Source of the DNA: Spirochaetaceae bacterium
GTDB taxonomy: Bacteria > Spirochaetota > Spirochaetia > DSM-27196 > PWMO01
Direction of reading: 5' to 3'
Assembly: GCA_007693945.1 (NCBI GenBank)
Contig: RECP01000069.1
Location: forward strand, 1-64,000
DNA: 64,000 nt
Shown: piece after piece, positions 863 through 61,798 of the stretch
Position numbering within the stretch: position 1 is the stretch's first letter
Layout: each line of letters opens with the position of its first letter
Position numbers and translations under genes: made by a program
Notes under the pieces: generated by a model
What the model was told of the DNA's origin: nothing
Databases searched by the model: none
The model's input: the letters and a program-made list of their open reading frames with translations, nothing else

Positions 863-3088
863 GTGAAGAAGCTCGGAACCTTTGGCGGGGTGTTCGTTCC
901 GTCGTTCGAGGCGATCCTCGGGGCGGTCCTGTTTCTGATTCTTCCGCTGCTGGTGGGTGCGGTTGGCGTCTGGAACGTGATGATCATCGTGCTGCTGGCC
1001 AACTCGGCCACGCTGGCCACCGCGTTCTCAATTGCCGACAGCTCGACCAACGTACGCAGAGTGGGCGCCGGCGGCATGTACGCGTTATCCAAGCATTCTC
1101 TGGGTATCGCGTTCGGAGGCTCGATTGGAATCCAGCTCTTCATCGCGCAGGCGGTCAGCATCGGCTTCTACGCAGTCGGTTTTGCCGAACCGTTGCAGCA
1201 GTTCGTGGTCCGAATCCCCGCAGTGGCACGAATTGTCGAGCAGCACGCGATTCCGATCCTGCGTCAGAAACAGCTGCTGGCGACCCTGATCGCAATTGTG
1301 GCCCTGCTTGCCGCGCTGGCGGGAGCCGACTTCGCTTCCCGGTTGCAGTCGGTCATCTTCGTGATCCTGATTGTGGCGGTCGGACTGGTGCTGGTGTCCC
1401 CGCTGTTCGGTCCGCTGAACAGCGGGGAACCGATTTTTACCCCGACGCCGCTGGGCCGCGGCCTGATCCCCGGCATCGGCTTCTGGGCGGCGTTTGCCAC
1501 CTTCTTCCCGGCAGTAACCGGTATCGATGCCGGCGTGGGCATGAGCGGCAATCTCAAGGATCCGGGACGATCGCTGGCGCGCGGCACGTTCATGGCGATT
1601 GCGGTCACCTTTGTTGTCTACATGGCGACCGCCTTTGTCTTTGGTTTGGTGCGTCACGACCTGCTGGTGCCTTCCGCGGGATACGTGCCGTCCACCATCA
1701 ACATCTTTCTCGATGAGCCGGTCATCATGTTGGTTCTGCTGATCGGCATTCTGTTTGCTACCGGCTCATCGGCACTCTCCTACTTCCTGACCGCGCCGCG
1801 CACCGCTCAGGCGCTGGTGCGCGACCGGGTTGTCCCACGGGCGTTCCGGTTCCTGGGGCGCGACTTCACCAGGACCGGCCGAGAACCACGATGGGCCACG
1901 GTGCTCACGTTCCTGATCTTTCTGCCGGTGATCTGGGCCGGAGATATCGCGCTGGCATCGCTGATAGTCGGCATCTCTTTTCTGGTTGTCTATGCGTGGA
2001 TGAATCTGGCCGCGTTCTTCGAGCGCATCAGCGGCAACCCCAGTTTTCGGCCCACCAGCAAGGGACACTGGATCGTTTCGCTCTACGGCTTCCTGATCTG
2101 TATGGCGGTTATCTCGCTTTTCAACTTTCGGATCGGAATCGCCGTTCTGACCGCCCAGTTTGCCCTGTTCGCGCTACTGCTCAGGTTTCGCGCACATAAC
2201 ATGCTCGAAGGCGTCTGGTGGGGTGTGCTGTTCTCGCTGGTCGGGTGGGGCTCCAGACAGCTCGGAAACATTGTCCAGGGGACCAAGAACTGGCGTCCGA
2301 TCGTTGGGGTGTTTGGCTTTGCGGATAAGCCGGACGAAACCGAACGCTTGCGGGCAATCGCGCTGCGCATCGGCGAGTACCGCGGCTACGTAGCGGTCAA
2401 CCTGCTTTGCCCGCGCAAGTTTGATCCCGAGACGTTGAAACTGCCACGCGGTTCGCGGGTCATCCGCACCACCGAGGACCGCTTCGGTACTTCGGTGCGT
2501 TCGATTGTGCAGGCAACGGTTCCCGGAGGCTATCACTTCAACACCGTAGTACTTCCGATGGACGGTCGTTTCAACCTGACCGATCTTATCCGTGACCTGA
2601 TCGCCGAGCACACAAACGTGATTCTGTATCGTCACGGAAAGGTGGAGATCGGCGCGGAACGGATCGACGTCTACTGGAAAGGACAAGCCAACGGGAATCT
2701 CATGGCTCTGCTGGCCTACATTATCTCGCAGTCCGGCAGACGCTCGCGGAGCTCGGACGTACGGTCAATTCGCATTATCCGCAAGCTGACGGACGACGAA
2801 GAACCCGAAGTCGCCCGCAAAGAGATGGAGACACTGATGAGCGGGGCTCGACTCGACGGTGAAGTACTGCTGCTCGAACCTGACGACCAGCGTTTTCAGG
2901 AGACGGTGGCTGCCAACTCAACGGACGCCGGAATGATCCTGATGGGTATGCCGGGGGAGGACATGGGAGCGGTGGCTCAGATATTCGAGCTTGACGAGCT
3001 GTTCTTCACCAAGCAGATTGCCGCCTACGAAGACTTTCCCCCGATCCTGTTCGTCAAGGCCTCGGGGGTCTTCGATCTGTTCGCGTAA
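863..3088 (+). CDS. APC-superfamily transporter, SLC12 (cation-chloride cotransporter)-like
   Basis: This 741-residue protein has about twelve hydrophobic segments in its first ~460 residues, opening with a glycine-rich helix (GTFGGVFVPSFEAILGA) like the first helix of APC-fold carriers. Residues ~480-741 form a soluble C-terminal domain, as in bacterial relatives of SLC12 Na-K-Cl cotransporters. It probably moves ions or amino acids across the inner membrane; the substrate cannot be read from the sequence. The start is GTG at 863, preceded by GCAGGAG at 847-853. It stands alone, with glyA following after its own promoter. Confidence 0.75.
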   Translation: MKKLGTFGGVFVPSFEAILGAVLFLILPLLVGAVGVWNVMIIVLLANSATLATAFSIADSSTNVRRVGAGGMYALSKHSLGIAFGGSIGIQLFIAQAVSIGFYAVGFAEPLQQFVVRIPAVARIVEQHAIPILRQKQLLATLIAIVALLAALAGADFASRLQSVIFVILIVAVGLVLVSPLFGPLNSGEPIFTPTPLGRGLIPGIGFWAAFATFFPAVTGIDAGVGMSGNLKDPGRSLARGTFMAIAVTFVVYMATAFVFGLVRHDLLVPSAGYVPSTINIFLDEPVIMLVLLIGILFATGSSALSYFLTAPRTAQALVRDRVVPRAFRFLGRDFTRTGREPRWATVLTFLIFLPVIWAGDIALASLIVGISFLVVYAWMNLAAFFERISGNPSFRPTSKGHWIVSLYGFLICMAVISLFNFRIGIAVLTAQFALFALLLRFRAHNMLEGVWWGVLFSLVGWGSRQLGNIVQGTKNWRPIVGVFGFADKPDETERLRAIALRIGEYRGYVAVNLLCPRKFDPETLKLPRGSRVIRTTEDRFGTSVRSIVQATVPGGYHFNTVVLPMDGRFNLTDLIRDLIAEHTNVILYRHGKVEIGAERIDVYWKGQANGNLMALLAYIISQSGRRSRSSDVRSIRIIRKLTDDEEPEVARKEMETLMSGARLDGEVLLLEPDDQRFQETVAANSTDAGMILMGMPGEDMGAVAQIFELDELFFTKQIAAYEDFPPILFVKASGVFDLFA

Positions 3089-3122
3089 GCGCAGACTGCA
3101 GCGTCCCAGCGATTCGTCCCGG

Positions 3123-3151
3123 TTGCAGTGGGTATGATTTGCGGATATGCT
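3123..3151 (+). promoter_or_regulatory. Sigma-70-type promoter of glyA
   Basis: TTGCAG (3123-3128) and TATGCT (3146-3151) are exactly 17 bases apart. Transcription would start near 3158, leaving a leader of about 37 nt that holds the strong ribosome site AGAGGAG just before the glyA ATG. This is one of the few genes here with a conventional leader. Confidence 0.5.
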
Positions 3152-3194
3152 GTTGCACGATTTTGTCATCTGAGCTCAAGAGGAGTAAGCTTCG

Positions 3195-4463
3195 ATGCTC
3201 GATTTTCTGAAGCAGAACGATCCTGAAATCGCCGAGCAGATCATGCGCGAACTCGCGCGGCAGAACGAGAAGATTGAACTGATCGCCTCCGAAAACCTGG
3301 TAAGCCCGACGGTCATGGAAGCACAGGGTTCGGTGCTCACCAACAAGTACGCCGAGGGCTATCCCGGCAACCGCTATCACGCCGGATGTGAGCATGTGGA
3401 TGTCATAGAAAGCATCGCAATCGAGCGTGCCAGGCAGCTCTTTGGGGCCCAACACGCCAACGTGCAGCCGCACTCGGGGGTCAATGCCAACCTCGCGGTT
3501 TACGTTGCCATGTTGAAGCCGGGAGATACCATTCTGGGCATGCAGCTGGATATGGGCGGGCATCTGTCGCACGGCAGCAAGGCCAACATCTCTGGTAAGT
3601 TCTATAGCTGTCATTTTTACGGCGTCGACCGCGAAAGCGAGCTGATCGATTACGGCGCCATGCAGCAGCTTGCGCGCGATTACAAGCCGCGCATGATCGT
3701 GGCCGGTGCCAGTTCGTACTCACGCGTCATAGACTACGCACCGTTTCGGGAAGTGGCGGATGAGATCGGCGCCTTGTTCCTGGTGGATATGGCGCATATC
3801 TCCGGTATCGTCGCCGCCGGCCAACACCCTAACCCGGTGCCCTATGCCGACTTTGTCACCACAACCACCACCAAGACAATTCGCGGTGCCCGCGGTGGCC
3901 TCATACTGTGCAGGCAGGAATACGGCAGGAAGATTGACAAGGCGATCTTTCCCGGAATCCAGGGCGGGCCGCAGCTGCAGACCATCGCGGGCAAAGCGGT
4001 ATGTTTCCGTGAGGCAATGAGCGGCGACTTCAAGAGCTACATCGGCCGGGTACTGAAGAACGCCCGGGCAATGGCCGCCGCCCTGGAGCAGCGCGGCTAC
4101 CGTATAGTGGCGGGGGGCACCGATACGCATCTGTTCCTGGTCGATCTGCGGTCCAGGGGACTGACCGGGGCGAGCGCCGAGGAAGCGCTGGACGCCGTGG
4201 GCATAACGGTCAACAAGAACATGATTCCGTTTGATCCCGAAAAGCCTCAGACCACCAGCGGTATCCGGATCGGCACGTCGGCAATGACTACCCGCGGTTT
4301 GGACGAGGCCGGCATGCTGCAGATTGCCGAGTTGATCGACAAGACGCTGTCGGGTATCGGCAATCCGGCGGTGCAGACAGAGGTTCGCCGGCAGGTTCGT
4401 GAGATCTGCCGTGAATACCCGATCTACGGCTACACATTCAAGCAGGAGGTGGCCGATGAGTAG
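3195..4463 (+). CDS. glyA: Serine hydroxymethyltransferase
   Basis: This PLP enzyme interconverts serine and glycine while loading tetrahydrofolate with a one-carbon unit. At 422 residues it has the usual bacterial length. The schiff-base lysine is Lys227 in the [14 protein letters not shown] signature, and the N-terminal IELIASEN and [11 protein letters not shown] motifs are intact. The ATG at 3195 follows AGAGGAG. The last 8 bases overlap the start of the next gene, an M20 amidohydrolase, so the two are very likely cotranscribed and probably translationally coupled. This ties one-carbon or glycine metabolism to hydrolysis of an N-acyl amino acid or peptide. Confidence 0.95.
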
Positions 4464-17809: not shown

Positions 17810-18002
17810 CCGCCACATCATCTGCAGCAACATCGCTCACGCCGTCGGTTGGCAGACGAATTCCGCTGCGCCGCGCCCGAGAGCGAGCCCGCGAACGTCT
17901 CCGCAGCCTCTGCGAGGACAAGTGAGCGGGGGTGCTCTCGAGGCAGGCGGGCAGGAGCTCCATGCCAACCGACCCCGTACGGCCAAAACTGCTGCGATGA
18001 GC
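17810..18002 (+). repeat. Dispersed palindromic repeat, copy A
   Basis: This 310-base intergenic region (17736-18046) holds a palindromic element. GTCGGTTGGCA (17844-17854) is inverted at 17963-17973, and CGAGAGC (17878-17884) at 17934-17940. The core (CGTCTCCGCAG, AGGACAAG, GGCAGGCG blocks) matches the reverse complement of copy C (23483-23749) over about 150 bases. Its right end (17952-17990) matches copy B (21680-21718). It encodes nothing recognisable. Confidence 0.75.
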
Positions 18003-18034
18003 ACGATTCGCTCGACCGCAGCACCGAACGGGTG

Positions 18035-18040
18035 TATGCT
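18035..18040 (+). promoter_or_regulatory. -10 box (TATGCT) 6 bases before the PEBP gene
   Basis: TATGCT ends six bases before ATG 18047, with TCGACC at 18012-18017 as a possible -35 box 17 bases upstream. No Shine-Dalgarno sequence is present. The promoter lies just beyond the end of repeat copy A. Confidence 0.4.
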
Positions 18041-18046
18041 CTAAGC

Positions 18047-18499
18047 ATGGAACTGAAGAGCAGTGCTGTACAGAAAGGCCAGGCGATGCCGCGCCGATAT
18101 ACCTGTGACGATGCCGACATTTCGCCTCCGCTGGCCTGGAGCGGGGTTCCGCCGGGGACCAGGGCGCTGGCTCTGATCTGCGACGATCCCGACGCTCCGG
18201 TGGGAACATGGGTGCACTGGGTCTACTACGACATACCGGCCTCGACCCTTGAACTGGTGCAAGGCGTTGCTCCGGATGAAAAACCGACGCCGGGGGGGTG
18301 TCAGGGACGCAACGACTTCGGTCGTCTGGGCTACGGAGGACCGTGTCCGCCGTCCGGCCAGCATCGCTACTATTTCAGGCTCTATGCGCTGGACTCGGAG
18401 CTTGGTCTCAATCCCGGCGCGTCAAGACAACAGGTCGAATCGGCCATGGCCGGTCACGTGTTGGATGAAGCCCAGCTGATGGTAACCTACGCACGCTAG
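18047..18499 (+). CDS. YbhB/YbcL-family (PEBP, Raf kinase inhibitor-like) protein
   Basis: The 150-residue protein has the bacterial PEBP signature: a DISPPLAWSGVPPGTRALALICDDPDAP block and the HWVYYDIP motif, followed by the GYGGPCPPSGQHRYYF ligand-pocket segment. Bacterial members are small cytosolic proteins of unknown physiological role. The frame is open further upstream through the repeat, but ATG 18047 gives the family N-terminus. Confidence 0.92.
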   Translation: MELKSSAVQKGQAMPRRYTCDDADISPPLAWSGVPPGTRALALICDDPDAPVGTWVHWVYYDIPASTLELVQGVAPDEKPTPGGCQGRNDFGRLGYGGPCPPSGQHRYYFRLYALDSELGLNPGASRQQVESAMAGHVLDEAQLMVTYAR

Positions 18500-20233: not shown

Positions 20234-21589
20234 TCAGATCGACGGCAAGCCCGCAAGCGCCATCGCGATCTCTTCCTCGGGGTAGTGATAGGCGATCAGC
20301 TTGTCGGCGTGGTAGTCCATATAGGCCTGAAGGTCGAAGTGACCATGGCCGCACAGGTTGAACAGGATCGACCGACTCTTGCCCTCCTCCCTGCAGCGTA
20401 ACGCCTCGCGGATCGCCCCGGCTACCGCGTGATTGGCCTCCGGCGCCGGCAGGATTCCCTCACAACGCGCAAACTGAACACCGGCGGCGAATGTCTCAGT
20501 CTGATCAACCGACGTAGCCTCAATCAGCTTCTGGTCCAGCAGGTGACTTACCAGCGGCGCCATGCCGTGGTAGCGAAGTCCTCCGGCATGGAACCCGGGT
20601 GGCACGAAGGTGCTGCCGAGGGTGTACATCTTTACCAGGGGCGTAAGGTGAGCGGTGTCTCCGAAGTCATAGGTAAACCTGCCCTTGGTCAGGCTGGGAC
20701 AGGCTGAGGGTTCGATCGCCACGACTCGTACGTCCTGTTCCCCGCGCAGCTTCTTTCCGATGAACGGAAACGCAATACCGGCAAAATTGGATCCCCCGCC
20801 GGTGCAGCCGACCAGAATGTCGGGGTAGTCATCGGCCAGTTCCATCTGCTCAATGGCTTCGATTCCAATGACGGTCTGGTGCAGTAGAACGTGGTTCAGT
20901 ACGCTACCCAGGGCGTACTTGGTACCCGGGTGCGTCACCGCGGCCTCAACGGCTTCCGAAATCGCGATTCCCAGCGAGCCGGTGGAATCCGGGTGTTCGG
21001 CGAGTATCGCGCGACCGGCAGCGGTCTCTTCGCTGGGGCTGGCGGTCACCGTGGCCCCGTAATTCTCTATCAAGCCACGCCGGTACGGTTTCTGATTGTA
21101 GCTCACGCGCACCATGTATACCTTGCAGTGCATGCCGAAAAAGGCGCACGCCATCGCAAGCGCACTGCCCCACTGGCCTGCCCCGGTCTCGGTCGCGAGC
21201 TGCGTCACACCTTCCTGCTTGTTGTAGTACGCCTGAGGCACGGACGTGTTCGGTTTGTGACTTCCGACCGGGCTGACGCCCTCATACTTGTAGTATATGC
21301 GCGCCGGAGTATCGAGGGCCTTCTCCAGCCGCCGGGCTCGGTACATCGGCGTTGGGCGCCACTGGCGCAGGATGTCACGCACCTCTTCGGGGATCTCGAT
21401 CCGCTGTTCGGTACTGACTTCCTGCATGATGAGAGCCATTGGGAACAATGGCGCGAGGTCATCCGGGCCTACCGGCTGGTGAGTTGCCGGGTGCAGAACC
21501 GGTGCAAGCGGCTGTTTGAGGTCGCTTTGAATGTTGTACCAGTGGGTCGGGATTCGCTCTTCGGGGAGATTGAACTTTATGGGATCCAT
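20234..21589 (-). CDS. TrpB-like PLP enzyme (tryptophan synthase beta, TrpB2 type)
   Basis: The 451-residue length and N-terminal extension ([15 protein letters not shown]) are typical of the TrpB2 group rather than the ~400-residue TrpB1. The PLP lysine sits in GSHKPNTS (~residue 112), followed by [12 protein letters not shown]. The phosphate loop GCTGGGSNF is present. TrpB2 condenses indole with serine; without trpA or other trp genes nearby it may salvage indole. The ATG at 21589 has an AGGAG ribosome site. Confidence 0.9.
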
Positions 21590-21660
21590 GGCAACTCCTG
21601 TTGTGCAGATTGAGTGCCGAATTGTAGCACCAGTACCAACCGAGGGTCAACGTCCGATTC

Positions 21661-21776
21661 GCTGCCGGCAGCAATTGTGGTTTTGGCCGTACGGGGGCGG
21701 TTGGCATGGAGCTCCTGGGGGTAAGGACAACGTTGGCGCGTGCGGCGCCGTACGGCCAGAATTGCTGCGCTGCCGG
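21661..21776 (-). repeat. Dispersed palindromic repeat, copy B (short form)
   Basis: The 187-base gap between trpB2 and the kinase gene contains an imperfect inverted repeat: GCAGCAATT plus TGGCCGTACGG on the left (21669-21693) and CCGTACGGCCA plus AATTGCTGC on the right (21748-21768). On the minus strand, 21718-21680 (CAGGAGCTCCATGCCAACCG and onward) is nearly identical to the right end of copy A. The long central part of A and C is missing, so this looks like an internally deleted copy. Confidence 0.65.
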
Positions 21777-22625
21777 TCAGTCGTAACGGCGTTGCATCGC
21801 CTCGCGCGCCTTCTGGAGGTTGAAATCCATGAAGTTGCGGTACCGGTCTTTGCACCAGAACGCCACGTGCATGCAGTTCATGACTTCACACCAGCGCAGG
21901 GCGTGCCGGTCATAGGTCGAACGTGCGCCGTAGCCGTCAAGAAAGAACTCTCGCGCCTGAACGCTGTTCATGTAGTTGCGCCGTTCGCGCAGGATCCATG
22001 CAAGCTCGTATTCGCGCCATCCGATCCCGGCAGACTCCCAGTCCAGAATCGCGGATACTTCACCGCGGTTGACCAGCACATTGGCGTCGTTGAGATCCCC
22101 GTGCACAAACACCTGATCGCGGTTATGAGGGGCGTTCTGTCGCAGCCAGTGAACCAGCTCCTGGAAGCGCGGATCGTCGAGTTCCTGTTCACCGAGCAAT
22201 CCGTACAGTGATGTGCGTTTCTGCGGCTGCCAGTCGAGCTTGATGGTATGCAGCCAACCGACTAACTCACCGAGTTGATGCAGCACACGGTTGGTCATGT
22301 GCGGCAGATGATTGTCGCTGAGCGGATTGAGAACATCGCGCAGAATTGTGCCGGGTCGCTCCTCCAGCGCCATGAAACTGCGGCGGCCGACCCCGTGCCA
22401 CAGGACGCGCGGCACGGGAAAGCTCTGCTGTCCCAGTACGACCAGTGCGTCACGCTCATTGTCCATGGTTGCGGTGGTGCTCTTGCACACTTTCAGATAG
22501 AGCCCGAGGGTCGAATTGCGGCATCGCGCCGTACAGCGATAAACTGAGTTCACCTCCGCGATACGGTTGCGTGTCGCCGAGAGGATCTCGACGTCCTGTG
22601 GTATTGCGTAGTCCGGAACGCGCAT
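21777..22625 (-). CDS. Aminoglycoside phosphotransferase/choline kinase-fold protein
   Basis: The 282-residue protein shows the APH catalytic loop FVHGDLNDANVLV and the metal-binding ILDWESAGIG motif, plus an LEERPGTILRD hinge. It is a small-molecule kinase; the substrate could be a sugar, choline, homoserine or an antibiotic and cannot be told from sequence. ATG 22625 is a plausible start but the ribosome site is weak. It is followed in the same direction by a dispersed repeat, not another gene. Confidence 0.8.
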   Translation of the reverse strand: MRVPDYAIPQDVEILSATRNRIAEVNSVYRCTARCRNSTLGLYLKVCKSTTATMDNERDALVVLGQQSFPVPRVLWHGVGRRSFMALEERPGTILRDVLNPLSDNHLPHMTNRVLHQLGELVGWLHTIKLDWQPQKRTSLYGLLGEQELDDPRFQELVHWLRQNAPHNRDQVFVHGDLNDANVLVNRGEVSAILDWESAGIGWREYELAWILRERRNYMNSVQAREFFLDGYGARSTYDRHALRWCEVMNCMHVAFWCKDRYRNFMDFNLQKAREAMQRRYD

Positions 22626-23405: not shown

Positions 23406-23482
23406 TGGTCCCCGGTTGTTGCGTAAACGGTACAACCACTCTCAAGTATAGAGCAAAAACGGCGTAATGCAACCGTTGAACA

Positions 23483-23749
23483 CGCGACTCACAAATCCGC
23501 ATTCTGACCGCACGGAGCCGGTTGGCATACATATGACTGCGCGCCTGCCGTGAGAGTGCCCCTCTTCGCTTGTCCTGGCAAAGCCTGCGGAGACGCTCCG
23601 GGGGGCACTCTCCGGCGCGGCGCACCGTACCTGGTCTGCCAACCGGCTCCGTGCAGACAAACGCGACGCCTGACTTCGCTGCTGCAGACAGACAGTCCAA
23701 GGCGCCCGTGGCGATAAACGGTCCAAATGCGAACCGCTGTCCGCGACTC
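23483..23749 (+). repeat. Dispersed palindromic repeat, copy C (most complete)
   Basis: The gap 23406-23776 contains a nested palindrome. An 18-base perfect inverted repeat (GCACGGAGCCGGTTGGCA at 23510-23527, its complement at 23637-23654) encloses an 11-base one (GAGAGTGCCCC at 23552-23562, complement at 23602-23612). A right module (23655-23736) and an imperfect outer inverted pair (CCGCATTCTGACCG near 23497, CGGTCCAAATGCGAACCG at 23719-23736) complete it. CGCGACTC occurs at both flanks (23483-23490 and 23742-23749), which could be an 8-bp target duplication. Confidence 0.8.
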
Positions 23750-56387: not shown

Positions 56388-56525
56388 CGATTCGCATTCT
56401 GACCGTGTAGCGGCTCGGGCGCCCTGGGTTGTTTGTCTGCAGCAGTGAAGTCAGGCGCCGCTTCTGTCTGTACGGAGGTACGGAGTCGGTTGGTATAAAT
56501 ATGACTGTGCGCCTGCCGTCAGAGT
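56388..56525 (-). repeat. Dispersed palindromic repeat, copy D (rearranged)
   Basis: Within the gap 56261-56585. Beginning CGATTCGCATTCTGACCG at 56388, the segment to ~56460 is the reverse complement of the right module of copy C (shared blocks include CGCCTGACTTC, CTGCTGCAGACA and GGCGCCCG). It is followed by GGAGTCGGTTGG and then by the left-arm sequence ATGACTGTGCGCCTGCCGT, which in copy C lies beside the other inverted repeat. Copy D is therefore a mosaic, as if recombination occurred between the terminal repeats. Confidence 0.7.
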
Positions 56526-56528
56526 CTA

Positions 56529-56558
56529 TTGACAATCCGACAAACAAAACCGACTATT
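56529..56558 (+). promoter_or_regulatory. Promoter of the lipoprotein gene at the edge of repeat D
   Basis: TTGACA (56529-56534) is followed after 18 bases by ACTATT (56553-56558). The -35 box starts four bases after the repeat ends. A GGAGG ribosome site at 56576-56580 precedes ATG 56586. Confidence 0.45.
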
Positions 56559-56585: not shown

Positions 56586-57374
56586 ATGCCGCGCACAAGA
56601 TCGCCAGTAGCTTTGCTGGTCCCGCTGATTGCGGTGGTTATGCTGATCACTACGGCCTGCGATGGTCTCTTGAGTCCGTCCGCTAACGACGCCGGGCGTC
56701 AGAACAACGACGGAACCCGCATCCTGTACGACAGTAGCCTGGGAACTCTTCCCGGTGATCAACAGTTCCGCTACCTGCGTTACCCTCTGTTCGGTGCCCA
56801 GGCAACCGAGACCTACAACACCAATGTGACCGTTCTCGACACCTCGCCTGATATCACGGAACTGGCCGGCTACTTTGCCGGCTCGCCGGCGGCCCCTACG
56901 CTCCCCACGCTTGTGCGCAGCCGCGGCTATACTGTAACGTTTGCGCTGCAGGTTGACGAAGAAGATCACGGCAATCGGAGCGACCGGGCCGGCTTCAGCA
57001 TTATCATACTGAGCGATGATCTTCTCGGAATCTCACTGGGGTTCTGGGAAGACAGCATATGGGCACATGAGGGTGGTGAGTCGTCCGATCTCTTCGCGCG
57101 CGCCGAAGAGCTGGACCGGGACACTACCGCAGAGCTTGTCACCTACCGACTCACGATCCTCGGCAGCCGGTATGCGCTGTTCGCCGACGGACAGCAAATC
57201 CTGACCGGTACCGTGCGTGACTACACCGCCTTCGAAGGCTTCAGCGGTTTCAACCCCTACCGTACGCCCAATTTCATCTTTCTGGGTGATAACTCGCAGT
57301 CTGCGGCTGCCCGGGTGCGTCTGGGCGACATTACCTTAAGCGTACCAGCCGCCGATCCCGTCCCTGACCCGTAG
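56586..57374 (+). CDS. Lipoprotein with beta-sandwich (lectin/anchor-like) domain
   Basis: ATG 56586 follows GGAGG and gives a lipoprotein signal (VMLITTAC, Cys25). The mature 237 residues look all-beta, with LPGDQQFRYLRYPLF, TYTV-like strands and LGDITLSVP at the end, reminiscent of concanavalin-like or choice-of-anchor domains, but I cannot assign a family with certainty. A surface-anchored role is likely from the signal. It is a single gene, followed by tRNA genes on the other strand. Confidence 0.6.
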   Translation: MPRTRSPVALLVPLIAVVMLITTACDGLLSPSANDAGRQNNDGTRILYDSSLGTLPGDQQFRYLRYPLFGAQATETYNTNVTVLDTSPDITELAGYFAGSPAAPTLPTLVRSRGYTVTFALQVDEEDHGNRSDRAGFSIIILSDDLLGISLGFWEDSIWAHEGGESSDLFARAEELDRDTTAELVTYRLTILGSRYALFADGQQILTGTVRDYTAFEGFSGFNPYRTPNFIFLGDNSQSAAARVRLGDITLSVPAADPVPDP

Positions 57375-57408: not shown

Positions 57409-57482
57409 TACGCCCAGCAGGACTCGAACCTGCCACCTACAGCTTAGAAGGCTGTTGCTCTATCCGGATGAGCTATGGGCGC
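57409..57482 (-). tRNA. tRNA-Arg (anticodon TCT)
   Basis: On the minus strand a 74-nt cloverleaf runs from GCGCCCA at 57482 to TGGGCGT ending near 57410. The anticodon arm CAGCC-TTCTAA-GGCTG style loop gives TCT, and the T-arm is GCAGG-TTCGAGT-CCTGC. The 3' CCA is not encoded. Confidence 0.9.
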
Positions 57483-57564: not shown

Positions 57565-57637
57565 TCGGGATGAGAGGATTCGAACCTCCGGTCTCCTGCT
57601 CCCAAAGCAGGCGCCTTAGCCACTAGGCTACATCCCG
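57565..57637 (-). tRNA. tRNA-Pro (anticodon TGG)
   Basis: On the minus strand a 73-nt cloverleaf runs from CGGGATG at 57637 to CATCCCG at 57566. The anticodon loop TTTGGGA between CTGC and GCAG arms gives TGG, and the T-arm is GGAGG-TTCGAAT-CCTCT. The 3' CCA is not encoded. The 82 bases between the two tRNAs hold a TTCGG/CCGAA hairpin at ~57538-57562 that could be a terminator or processing signal. Confidence 0.92.
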
Positions 57638-61065: not shown

Positions 61066-61683
61066 CTAGAATACATCAACTTTCCAACTTCCGGCCACGT
61101 TTCGCAGAAGGTAGAGAATCGCGGGTTGGCCCCGTACAACCATAATGGCCTCAACCTGGTCATCCCGCAGGAACCGTAGATCGTCAAGCCGGGCATTTGC
61201 CCGGCTCGGTCCGACAACCCACTCGAAGTAGTCGCGCAGGCTCTCGAGCTCGATTTCGTTGCGTTGCAGAATCGGCATTTGCGAGATCTCGCGCAAGATC
61301 TGCGGATCCGAATAGGTGCGCCGGTACTCGGGCGTCAGATAGTCCAGCCAGCGCTGGTAATCACGCCGCGCGATGATGCCGTTGAGCTCTTCGATTGTCT
61401 GCTCGACTTCACTGAAGGTGCGCTCGAATACCTCTTCAGTCACCTCAAACGCTTCTTCAACCGCAGGTTCGGCTGCGGGCGGAACGGGCTCAGGATCCTG
61501 CGCAACCGGCGGTTCCGGATCGACCCTCTCCGGCTCCGCCGGCGCTTCCGGCTCTGCCGGAGGAGACGGCGGAGCCGGATGCACCGCTGCCGGTTCGTCG
61601 CCGGGCACGACACTGGCGCATCCGCCCAGCAACAACGCGAGGAGAAGCATCAACGTGAGGGTTGCCGTCAGCACCTTTGGCAT
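61066..61683 (-). CDS. Lipoprotein with Pro/Glu-rich linker
   Basis: Lipobox Leu-Gly-Gly-Cys (Cys22) at the end of a strong signal. Residues ~30-75 are a Pro/Glu/Ala-rich linker (PSPPAEPEAPAEPE), likely spanning the envelope, and the last 125 residues form a compact domain (NGIIARRDYQRWLDYLTPEYRRTY...) similar in layout to NTF2/SnoaL-like small domains; this is a guess. ATG 61683 is supported by a consensus promoter directly upstream. First gene of the HEAT-sanA operon. Confidence 0.65.
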   Translation of the reverse strand: MPKVLTATLTLMLLLALLLGGCASVVPGDEPAAVHPAPPSPPAEPEAPAEPERVDPEPPVAQDPEPVPPAAEPAVEEAFEVTEEVFERTFSEVEQTIEELNGIIARRDYQRWLDYLTPEYRRTYSDPQILREISQMPILQRNEIELESLRDYFEWVVGPSRANARLDDLRFLRDDQVEAIMVVRGQPAILYLLRNVAGSWKVDVF

Positions 61684-61692
61684 TCTACCTAT

Positions 61693-61721
61693 ATAGTACC
61701 TTCGGCGCCGCAGGCTGTCAA
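61693..61721 (-). promoter_or_regulatory. Consensus promoter, nearly leaderless, of the lipoprotein operon
   Basis: On the minus strand TTGACA (61721-61716) and TACTAT (61698-61693) are 17 bases apart. ATG 61683 follows nine bases later, with only AGGT as a possible ribosome site. The clearest -35/-10 pair in the window. Confidence 0.65.
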
Positions 61722-61741
61722 ATCGCGGGTTCTTTGCCTGC

Positions 61742-61796
61742 AATTCGCATTCTGACCGCAGGGAGTCGGTTGGCATCGGATGACTGTGCGGCCGCC
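61742..61796 (+). repeat. Dispersed repeat, copy E (solo left end)
   Basis: ATTCGCATTCTGACCG, GGAGTCGGTTGGCAT and ATGACTGTGCG follow the same order as the left end of copy C (23496-23545). The rest of the element is absent. It lies between two divergent promoters. Confidence 0.65.
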
Positions 61797-61798
61797 GC

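Follow-up and report, generated by a model that had tools for sequence, protein, structure and literature searches.

Oriented insertion of two related MITE families at a fixed distance upstream of predicted promoters in a spirochaete genome

The closest described systems are TnGBS, ISLre2 and part of the ISKra4 group, Mutator-type elements that insert 15–17 bp upstream of the -35 boxes of sigmaA promoters, generate 8–9 bp duplications and carry inverted repeats of 18–39 bp ending in C; their right end faces the promoter, an orientation ascribed to the asymmetry of the two ends (Guerillot et al. 2014, PMC3942029). In the literature that we searched, precise promoter-directed insertion by bacterial transposons is reported for Mutator-type families alone, and a review of bacterial MITEs (PMC10969869) mentions neither targeting upstream of promoters nor ISKra4, ISLre2 or Mutator elements. 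The repeats described here occur in the draft genome of a Spirochaetaceae bacterium (3.73 Mb, 140 contigs, 86% complete), of which a 64-kb stretch of contig 49, hereafter the window, was the starting point. They resemble other bacterial MITEs in being short, needing no ORF, having terminal inverted repeats, target duplications and internal deletions, and reaching high copy number, but differ from those reviewed in their precise, oriented targeting. With the Mutator-type (p-MULT) elements they share a right end that faces the -35 box from a fixed upstream distance, a 9-bp duplication and a 26-bp terminal inverted repeat that begins with C. Whereas p-MULT elements are autonomous and keep 15–17 bp, the MITEs are non-autonomous and lie mostly at 17–18 bp; moreover, the IS elements that match the MITE ends encode a DDE_Tnp_1-like transposase, and the sole ISKra4 IS detected has other ends. 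Promoter-directed insertion is already known as a behaviour, but we found no description of a MITE family that displays it or of the link to ISNCY-type ends. That the elements keep a fixed, oriented distance from promoters is the main point of this work and was not part of the original prediction.

Two related families of mobile repeats

The original prediction listed five palindromic repeats (A–E) with two types of end, and all five were recovered at the positions and with the ends that it gave. The motif CGGTTGGCA has 39 matches in the window with at most one mismatch, vs. 22.4 expected, and none of 100 shuffles reaches 39. Local alignments connect A with C (75% over 152 bp, E ~1e-23), A with B (97% over 38 bp), C with D (81% over 99 bp) and C with E (84% over 57 bp). 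The division into two end types can be refined, in that A and B form one family (A-type) and C, D and E a second, older one (C-type) with ends CAGCAATTCGCATTCTGACCGCACGGAG and an interior homologous to that of the A-type; elements matching the C-type are also present in the congeners G002 and G004. Copy A (17838–17994, plus strand) has a degenerate left arm and a right terminal repeat that ends at 17994, and at least 14 further full-length cores of this genome are 92–99% identical to it. Copy B (21669–21767, minus strand, right end at 21669) is an A-type element with an internal deletion, flanked by the target-site duplication CGCTGCCGG at 21660–21668 and 21768–21776. Copy C (23490–23739, minus strand, right end at 23490) is a full-length C-type element between two copies of CGCGACT (23483–23489 and 23742–23748), a duplication conserved at 7/9 bp. 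The borders originally drawn for B (21661–21776) and C (23483–23749) coincide almost exactly with these target-site duplications. The remaining two copies are incomplete: D (56388–56525, plus strand) has lost its right end, and E (61738–61797, minus strand, ~60 bp) is a right end alone.

A scan of the whole genome, proposed together with the original prediction, returned many more copies than the initial five, with 55 matches to copy C and 42 to copy A. The core of the A-type end occurs 71 times exactly and 135 times with up to two mismatches, vs. 46 for a reversed control pattern; a stricter end pattern is found at 97 places, vs. 0 for its reversed control. Several contigs terminate inside copies, indicating that the assembly breaks there and that true copy numbers are probably higher. 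A full A-type element is ~245 bp long and ends on both sides in the 26-bp terminal inverted repeat CAGCAATTCTCATTTTGGCCGTACGG, while its interior is asymmetric, with a left arm GGCGCCGCACGCGCC... and a right arm GGGTCGGTTGGCATGGAGCTCC.... Internally deleted derivatives are found repeatedly, with core lengths of 219–222, 132–133, 128, 108, 95, 83 and 36 bp, and the MITEs as a whole span ~66–252 bp without a transposase.

Direct repeats of 9 bp flank many of the two-ended copies: 13 of 20 match in register at seven or more of the nine positions, seven of them perfectly, and the mean match is 5.95/9 vs. 2.74 for re-paired flanks. Comparison of orthologous regions, likewise suggested at the outset, identified three insertion sites that are empty in sister species. 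The C site is empty in all five congeners examined (gap of 83–293 bp vs. 370–559 bp). At the site before a glgX-like gene, two congeners lack the 162-bp A-type copy; a query of the joined flanks aligns there straight across the junction, and the promoter TTGCAG...GATAAT is present. Two congeners likewise have no insert at the site where a copy precedes an alr-like gene. Where these sites were read base by base, the promoter was already there. The B site is unusable as an empty site because relatives carry an extra gene at this place; in G001, G003 and G005 this gene, histidine-phosphatase-like by sequence, lies between the TrpB-like and APH-like genes, and it is missing from window positions 21590–21777, where copy B sits. 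Given their mobility, terminal repeats and target duplications, the repeats are MITEs, and the initial suggestion of non-autonomous mobile elements is borne out by the uniform ends, internal deletions of fixed length, 9-bp target duplications and empty congener sites.

The other suggestion, REP-like units, fares differently. Palindromes of the REP/REPIN type, mobilised by a RAYT tyrosine transposase, would indeed be palindromic, intergenic and present in high copy number like the copies here, but 26-bp terminal inverted repeats and 9-bp target duplications contradict such an origin and point to a DDE-type double-strand mechanism. We rejected REP/REPIN membership on the contrast between a long terminal inverted repeat with a 9-bp duplication and short palindromes without duplication; the lack of an Rfam match for the repeats in the window and ends held in common with IS elements encoding DDE transposases also speak against it, making this origin hardly credible.

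The interior folds as one long hairpin that is conserved across the A- and C-type families (97.5% of pair cells), and in six pairs both partners have changed, for the most part between A- and C-type; none of 500 shuffles reaches this number. The original prediction expected the long stems to form hairpins in RNA; the two-sided changes reflect few independent evolutionary events and are as yet uninformative on a role as RNA. Such conservation could also be expected if the repeats served the downstream genes as conserved cis-regulatory or RNA elements and merely resembled MITEs. This reading is contradicted by the target duplications and by the orthologous sites that are empty, which mark insertions rather than conserved regulatory sites. 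In addition, an Rfam scan of the window returned two tRNA genes (57409–57482 and 57565–57637, both minus strand) and no family match for the repeats, and elements located upstream of the -35 box are not transcribed by the promoter that they face. We consider a cis-regulatory or RNA origin very improbable, and treat the repeats as MITEs in what follows.

Spacing and orientation relative to predicted promoters

The promoters considered here are sequence predictions of the sigma70 type, scored with E. coli-like -35/-10 weights. In almost every copy, what follows the right end resembles a promoter. At A-type right ends, a -35 box starts 15–20 bp away in 43 of 51 cases and exactly 17–18 bp away in 39; shuffled flanks give a mean of 2.3 of 51 and a maximum of 7 in 200 runs. 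The outward flanks of A-type left ends behave differently, with a promoter at the same spacing in only 4/38 (Fisher p 1.8e-12 vs. right ends). Independently of any promoter calling, base composition peaks at +19/20 and +42–47 after the right end, the places expected for the -35 and -10 boxes. Eleven of 18 C-type right ends have a promoter at 15–20 bp. Of the 50 A-type right ends with enough sequence, 47 are followed within 150 nt by the start of an ORF of at least 60 aa, as are all eight C-type right ends tested.

In the window, copies A, B, C and E fit the same spacing. Facing copy A is a predicted promoter at 18012–18040 (plus strand), with -35 TCGACC (18012–18017) beginning 17 bp after the right end and separated by 17 bp from -10 TATGCT (18035–18040); a gene encoding a PBP domain (PF01161) starts at 18047. 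The predicted promoter facing B (21621–21650, minus strand; -35 TTGACC, complement of 21645–21650; -10 TACAAT, complement of 21621–21626) is 18 bp from the right end and precedes a minus-strand gene at 20237–21589 (PALP, TrpB-like). For C, the distance to the predicted promoter (23445–23472, minus strand; -35 TTGCAT, complement of 23467–23472; -10 TATACT, complement of 23445–23450) is 17 bp, and the empty site of a congener also has TTGCAA...TATACT. Copy E lies 16 bp from its predicted promoter (61693–61721, minus strand; -35 TTGACA, complement of 61716–61721; -10 TACTAT, complement of 61693–61698), followed by a minus-strand ORF starting at 61683. Copy D is without a right end but abuts the TTGACA of a predicted promoter at 56529–56557 (plus strand; -35 at 56529–56534; -10 GACTAT at 56552–56557), with a gene start at 56586. 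The MITEs are inserted in oriented fashion at a fixed distance upstream of predicted promoters.

How could such a pattern arise? The near-uniform orientation and the spacing of 17–18 bp suggest that the promoter, or a factor bound to it, guides the inserting enzyme. We think it very likely that a trans-acting DDE transposase inserts both related MITE families upstream of sigma70-type promoters with a 9-bp cut. Such an enzyme, supplied in trans, would recognise the terminal repeat CAGCAATTCTCATTTTGGCC.. and make a 9-bp staggered cut, placing the element upstream of a sigma70-type promoter with its right end 17–18 bp before the -35 box and the duplicated target at roughly -53 to -45. One orientation would prevail because the two ends of the element differ. 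By analogy with what has been proposed for TnGBS, the transposase may find promoters through contact with RNA polymerase or sigma factor.

Alternatively, insertion might be random and selection might have spared only those copies that lie immediately before a promoter, as could happen if the A/T-rich right end served as an UP element. The right end does put AAAATGAGAATT ~20–30 bp upstream of the -35 box, and nearly all copies are intergenic. Selection of this kind accords poorly, however, with the sharpness of the 17–18 bp spacing, which has no neighbours at the helical period and is seen at dozens of unrelated target sites, and with the nearly equal spacing for elements of other phyla (see below). 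We regard it as improbable, and favour insertion directed by the transposase. With each element, a hairpin and an A/T-rich stretch come to lie directly before a likely promoter, and the expansion of the families may thereby have altered the expression of many genes. The target sequences also mark dozens of predicted promoters in a lineage that is represented here by a draft assembly. With dozens of natural insertions at one spacing, sister species in which sites are empty, and an enzyme to propose as candidate, the system can be tested directly.

The terminal repeat in other bacteria and the candidate transposase

Searching plasmids with the MITE end gave 18 records, and in almost every one the match begins at query base 1. 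Several of these matches are IS elements of ~1.8 kb with the same 16–21 bp ends, 9-bp duplications and a transposase gene, which is annotated as "ISNCY" in Gloeothece and has homologues in Nostoc, Calothrix, Anabaena and Methylomagnum. The MITEs share both 9-bp duplications and the terminal repeat CAGCAATTCTCATTTT(G) with the ISNCY-annotated IS of cyanobacterial plasmids (for example that with transposase WP_013335080.1 of Gloeothece verrucosa), and 21 bp are identical to the Methylomagnum copy. The statement that no named family has these ends holds to the extent that the exact terminal inverted repeat had no match as text in papers; it does not hold for the elements themselves, since the ends match ISNCY-annotated IS of cyanobacteria and Methylomagnum. 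The ISNCY-type transposase matches DDE_Tnp_1 weakly (E up to 0.1 for six of its seven members), gives only a weak IS4-family match in an NCBIfam scan, and is not detectably similar to the ISKra4 profile (profile comparison probability 0.1%). Unlike these IS elements, the MITEs have no transposase gene, and unlike them they prefer promoters: no such preference is apparent in the few autonomous plasmid-borne ISNCY copies (1 of 14 ends vs. 0.43 expected). The MITEs could be derivatives of ISNCY-type IS, not full members.

Short elements with the same ends are present in Rhodospira, a Verrucomicrobia MAG and four cyanobacteria. Six of eight such elements (6 of 15 ends) lie 14–19 bp from a promoter-like site, vs. 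0.46 ends in shuffles, and none of 500 shuffles reaches six. The match of the terminal repeats favours an ISNCY-type mobiliser, and we infer that the transposase acting on the MITEs is probably a member of the ISNCY-annotated, DDE_Tnp_1-like group, in which IS elements carry this repeat. There is a slightly better than even chance, in our judgement, that oriented, fixed-distance insertion upstream of sigma70 promoters arose in this second, unrelated lineage and that its MITEs spread the targeting across several phyla. If this behaviour does belong to MITEs with the ends of another transposase group, it either evolved twice or passes between families. The autonomous partners with the same ends were found on plasmids of other bacteria. 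In about one third of the 3.73-Mb genome (~1.1 Mb of contigs, the window and the sequences flanking most copies), no ISNCY-type transposase and no such partner was found, and no inverted pair of complete A-type ends at a transposase-sized distance was seen at the loci examined; what lay between the ends was MITE interior, save for a few weak or unrelated matches. A search of phages with the ISNCY-type transposase found none, and the terminal inverted repeat had two chance matches in viral contigs, neither with a paired end.

A Mutator-type (p-MULT) transposase is another candidate, for instance the ISKra4 enzyme of this genome acting in trans, in which case the targeting would be a known p-MULT property. 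The genome does encode an ISKra4 transposase (NF033572, 268.8 bits, cut-off 205), and the MITEs match ISKra4, ISLre2 and TnGBS in promoter insertion, 8–9 bp duplications, inverted repeats ending in C and an orientation set by the ends. This genome's ISKra4 IS has, however, the terminal repeats GGGYGCACGACAATTT, unlike those of the MITEs, which are identical over 16–21 bp to the ends of IS with the unrelated transposase described above. The five congeners gave no ISKra4 match, although C-type elements are present in G002 and G004 at least; no ISKra4 element with MITE ends was seen at the loci inspected in 60 related genomes, and a search for ISKra4 in the Rhodospira and Verrucomicrobia genomes that carry the terminal repeat found none. 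A Mutator-type mobiliser is for these reasons unlikely, though it deserves more weight than the alternatives above, and the ISNCY-type transposase is preferred. The ISKra4-family IS at G000 contig C5:97500–99990 comprises a small upstream ORF and a 444-aa transposase, and is cut by the contig end.

The IS1202 family (ISAjo2 group) was formerly listed under ISNCY. In PMC10132070, it is described as a new IS family with oriented targeting near dif/pdif sites and TIRs of 24–26 bp; oriented target specificity and similar TIR length are common to it and the MITEs, but the target differs.

Two further occurrences lie outside the genus. One A-type fragment of 95% identity is located at a contig start in a genome from another family in the order (G009, C151:1–102), with no promoter-like site after the fragment, and reflects either horizontal transfer or mis-binning. 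On an Aureispira plasmid (Bacteroidota; positions 1404–4122), a related ISNCY-type transposase lies between CAGCAATTCTAACGAT ends at a distance of ~2.7 kb, and the 9 bp outside the two ends are the same (ATTTATGCT/AGCATAAAT).
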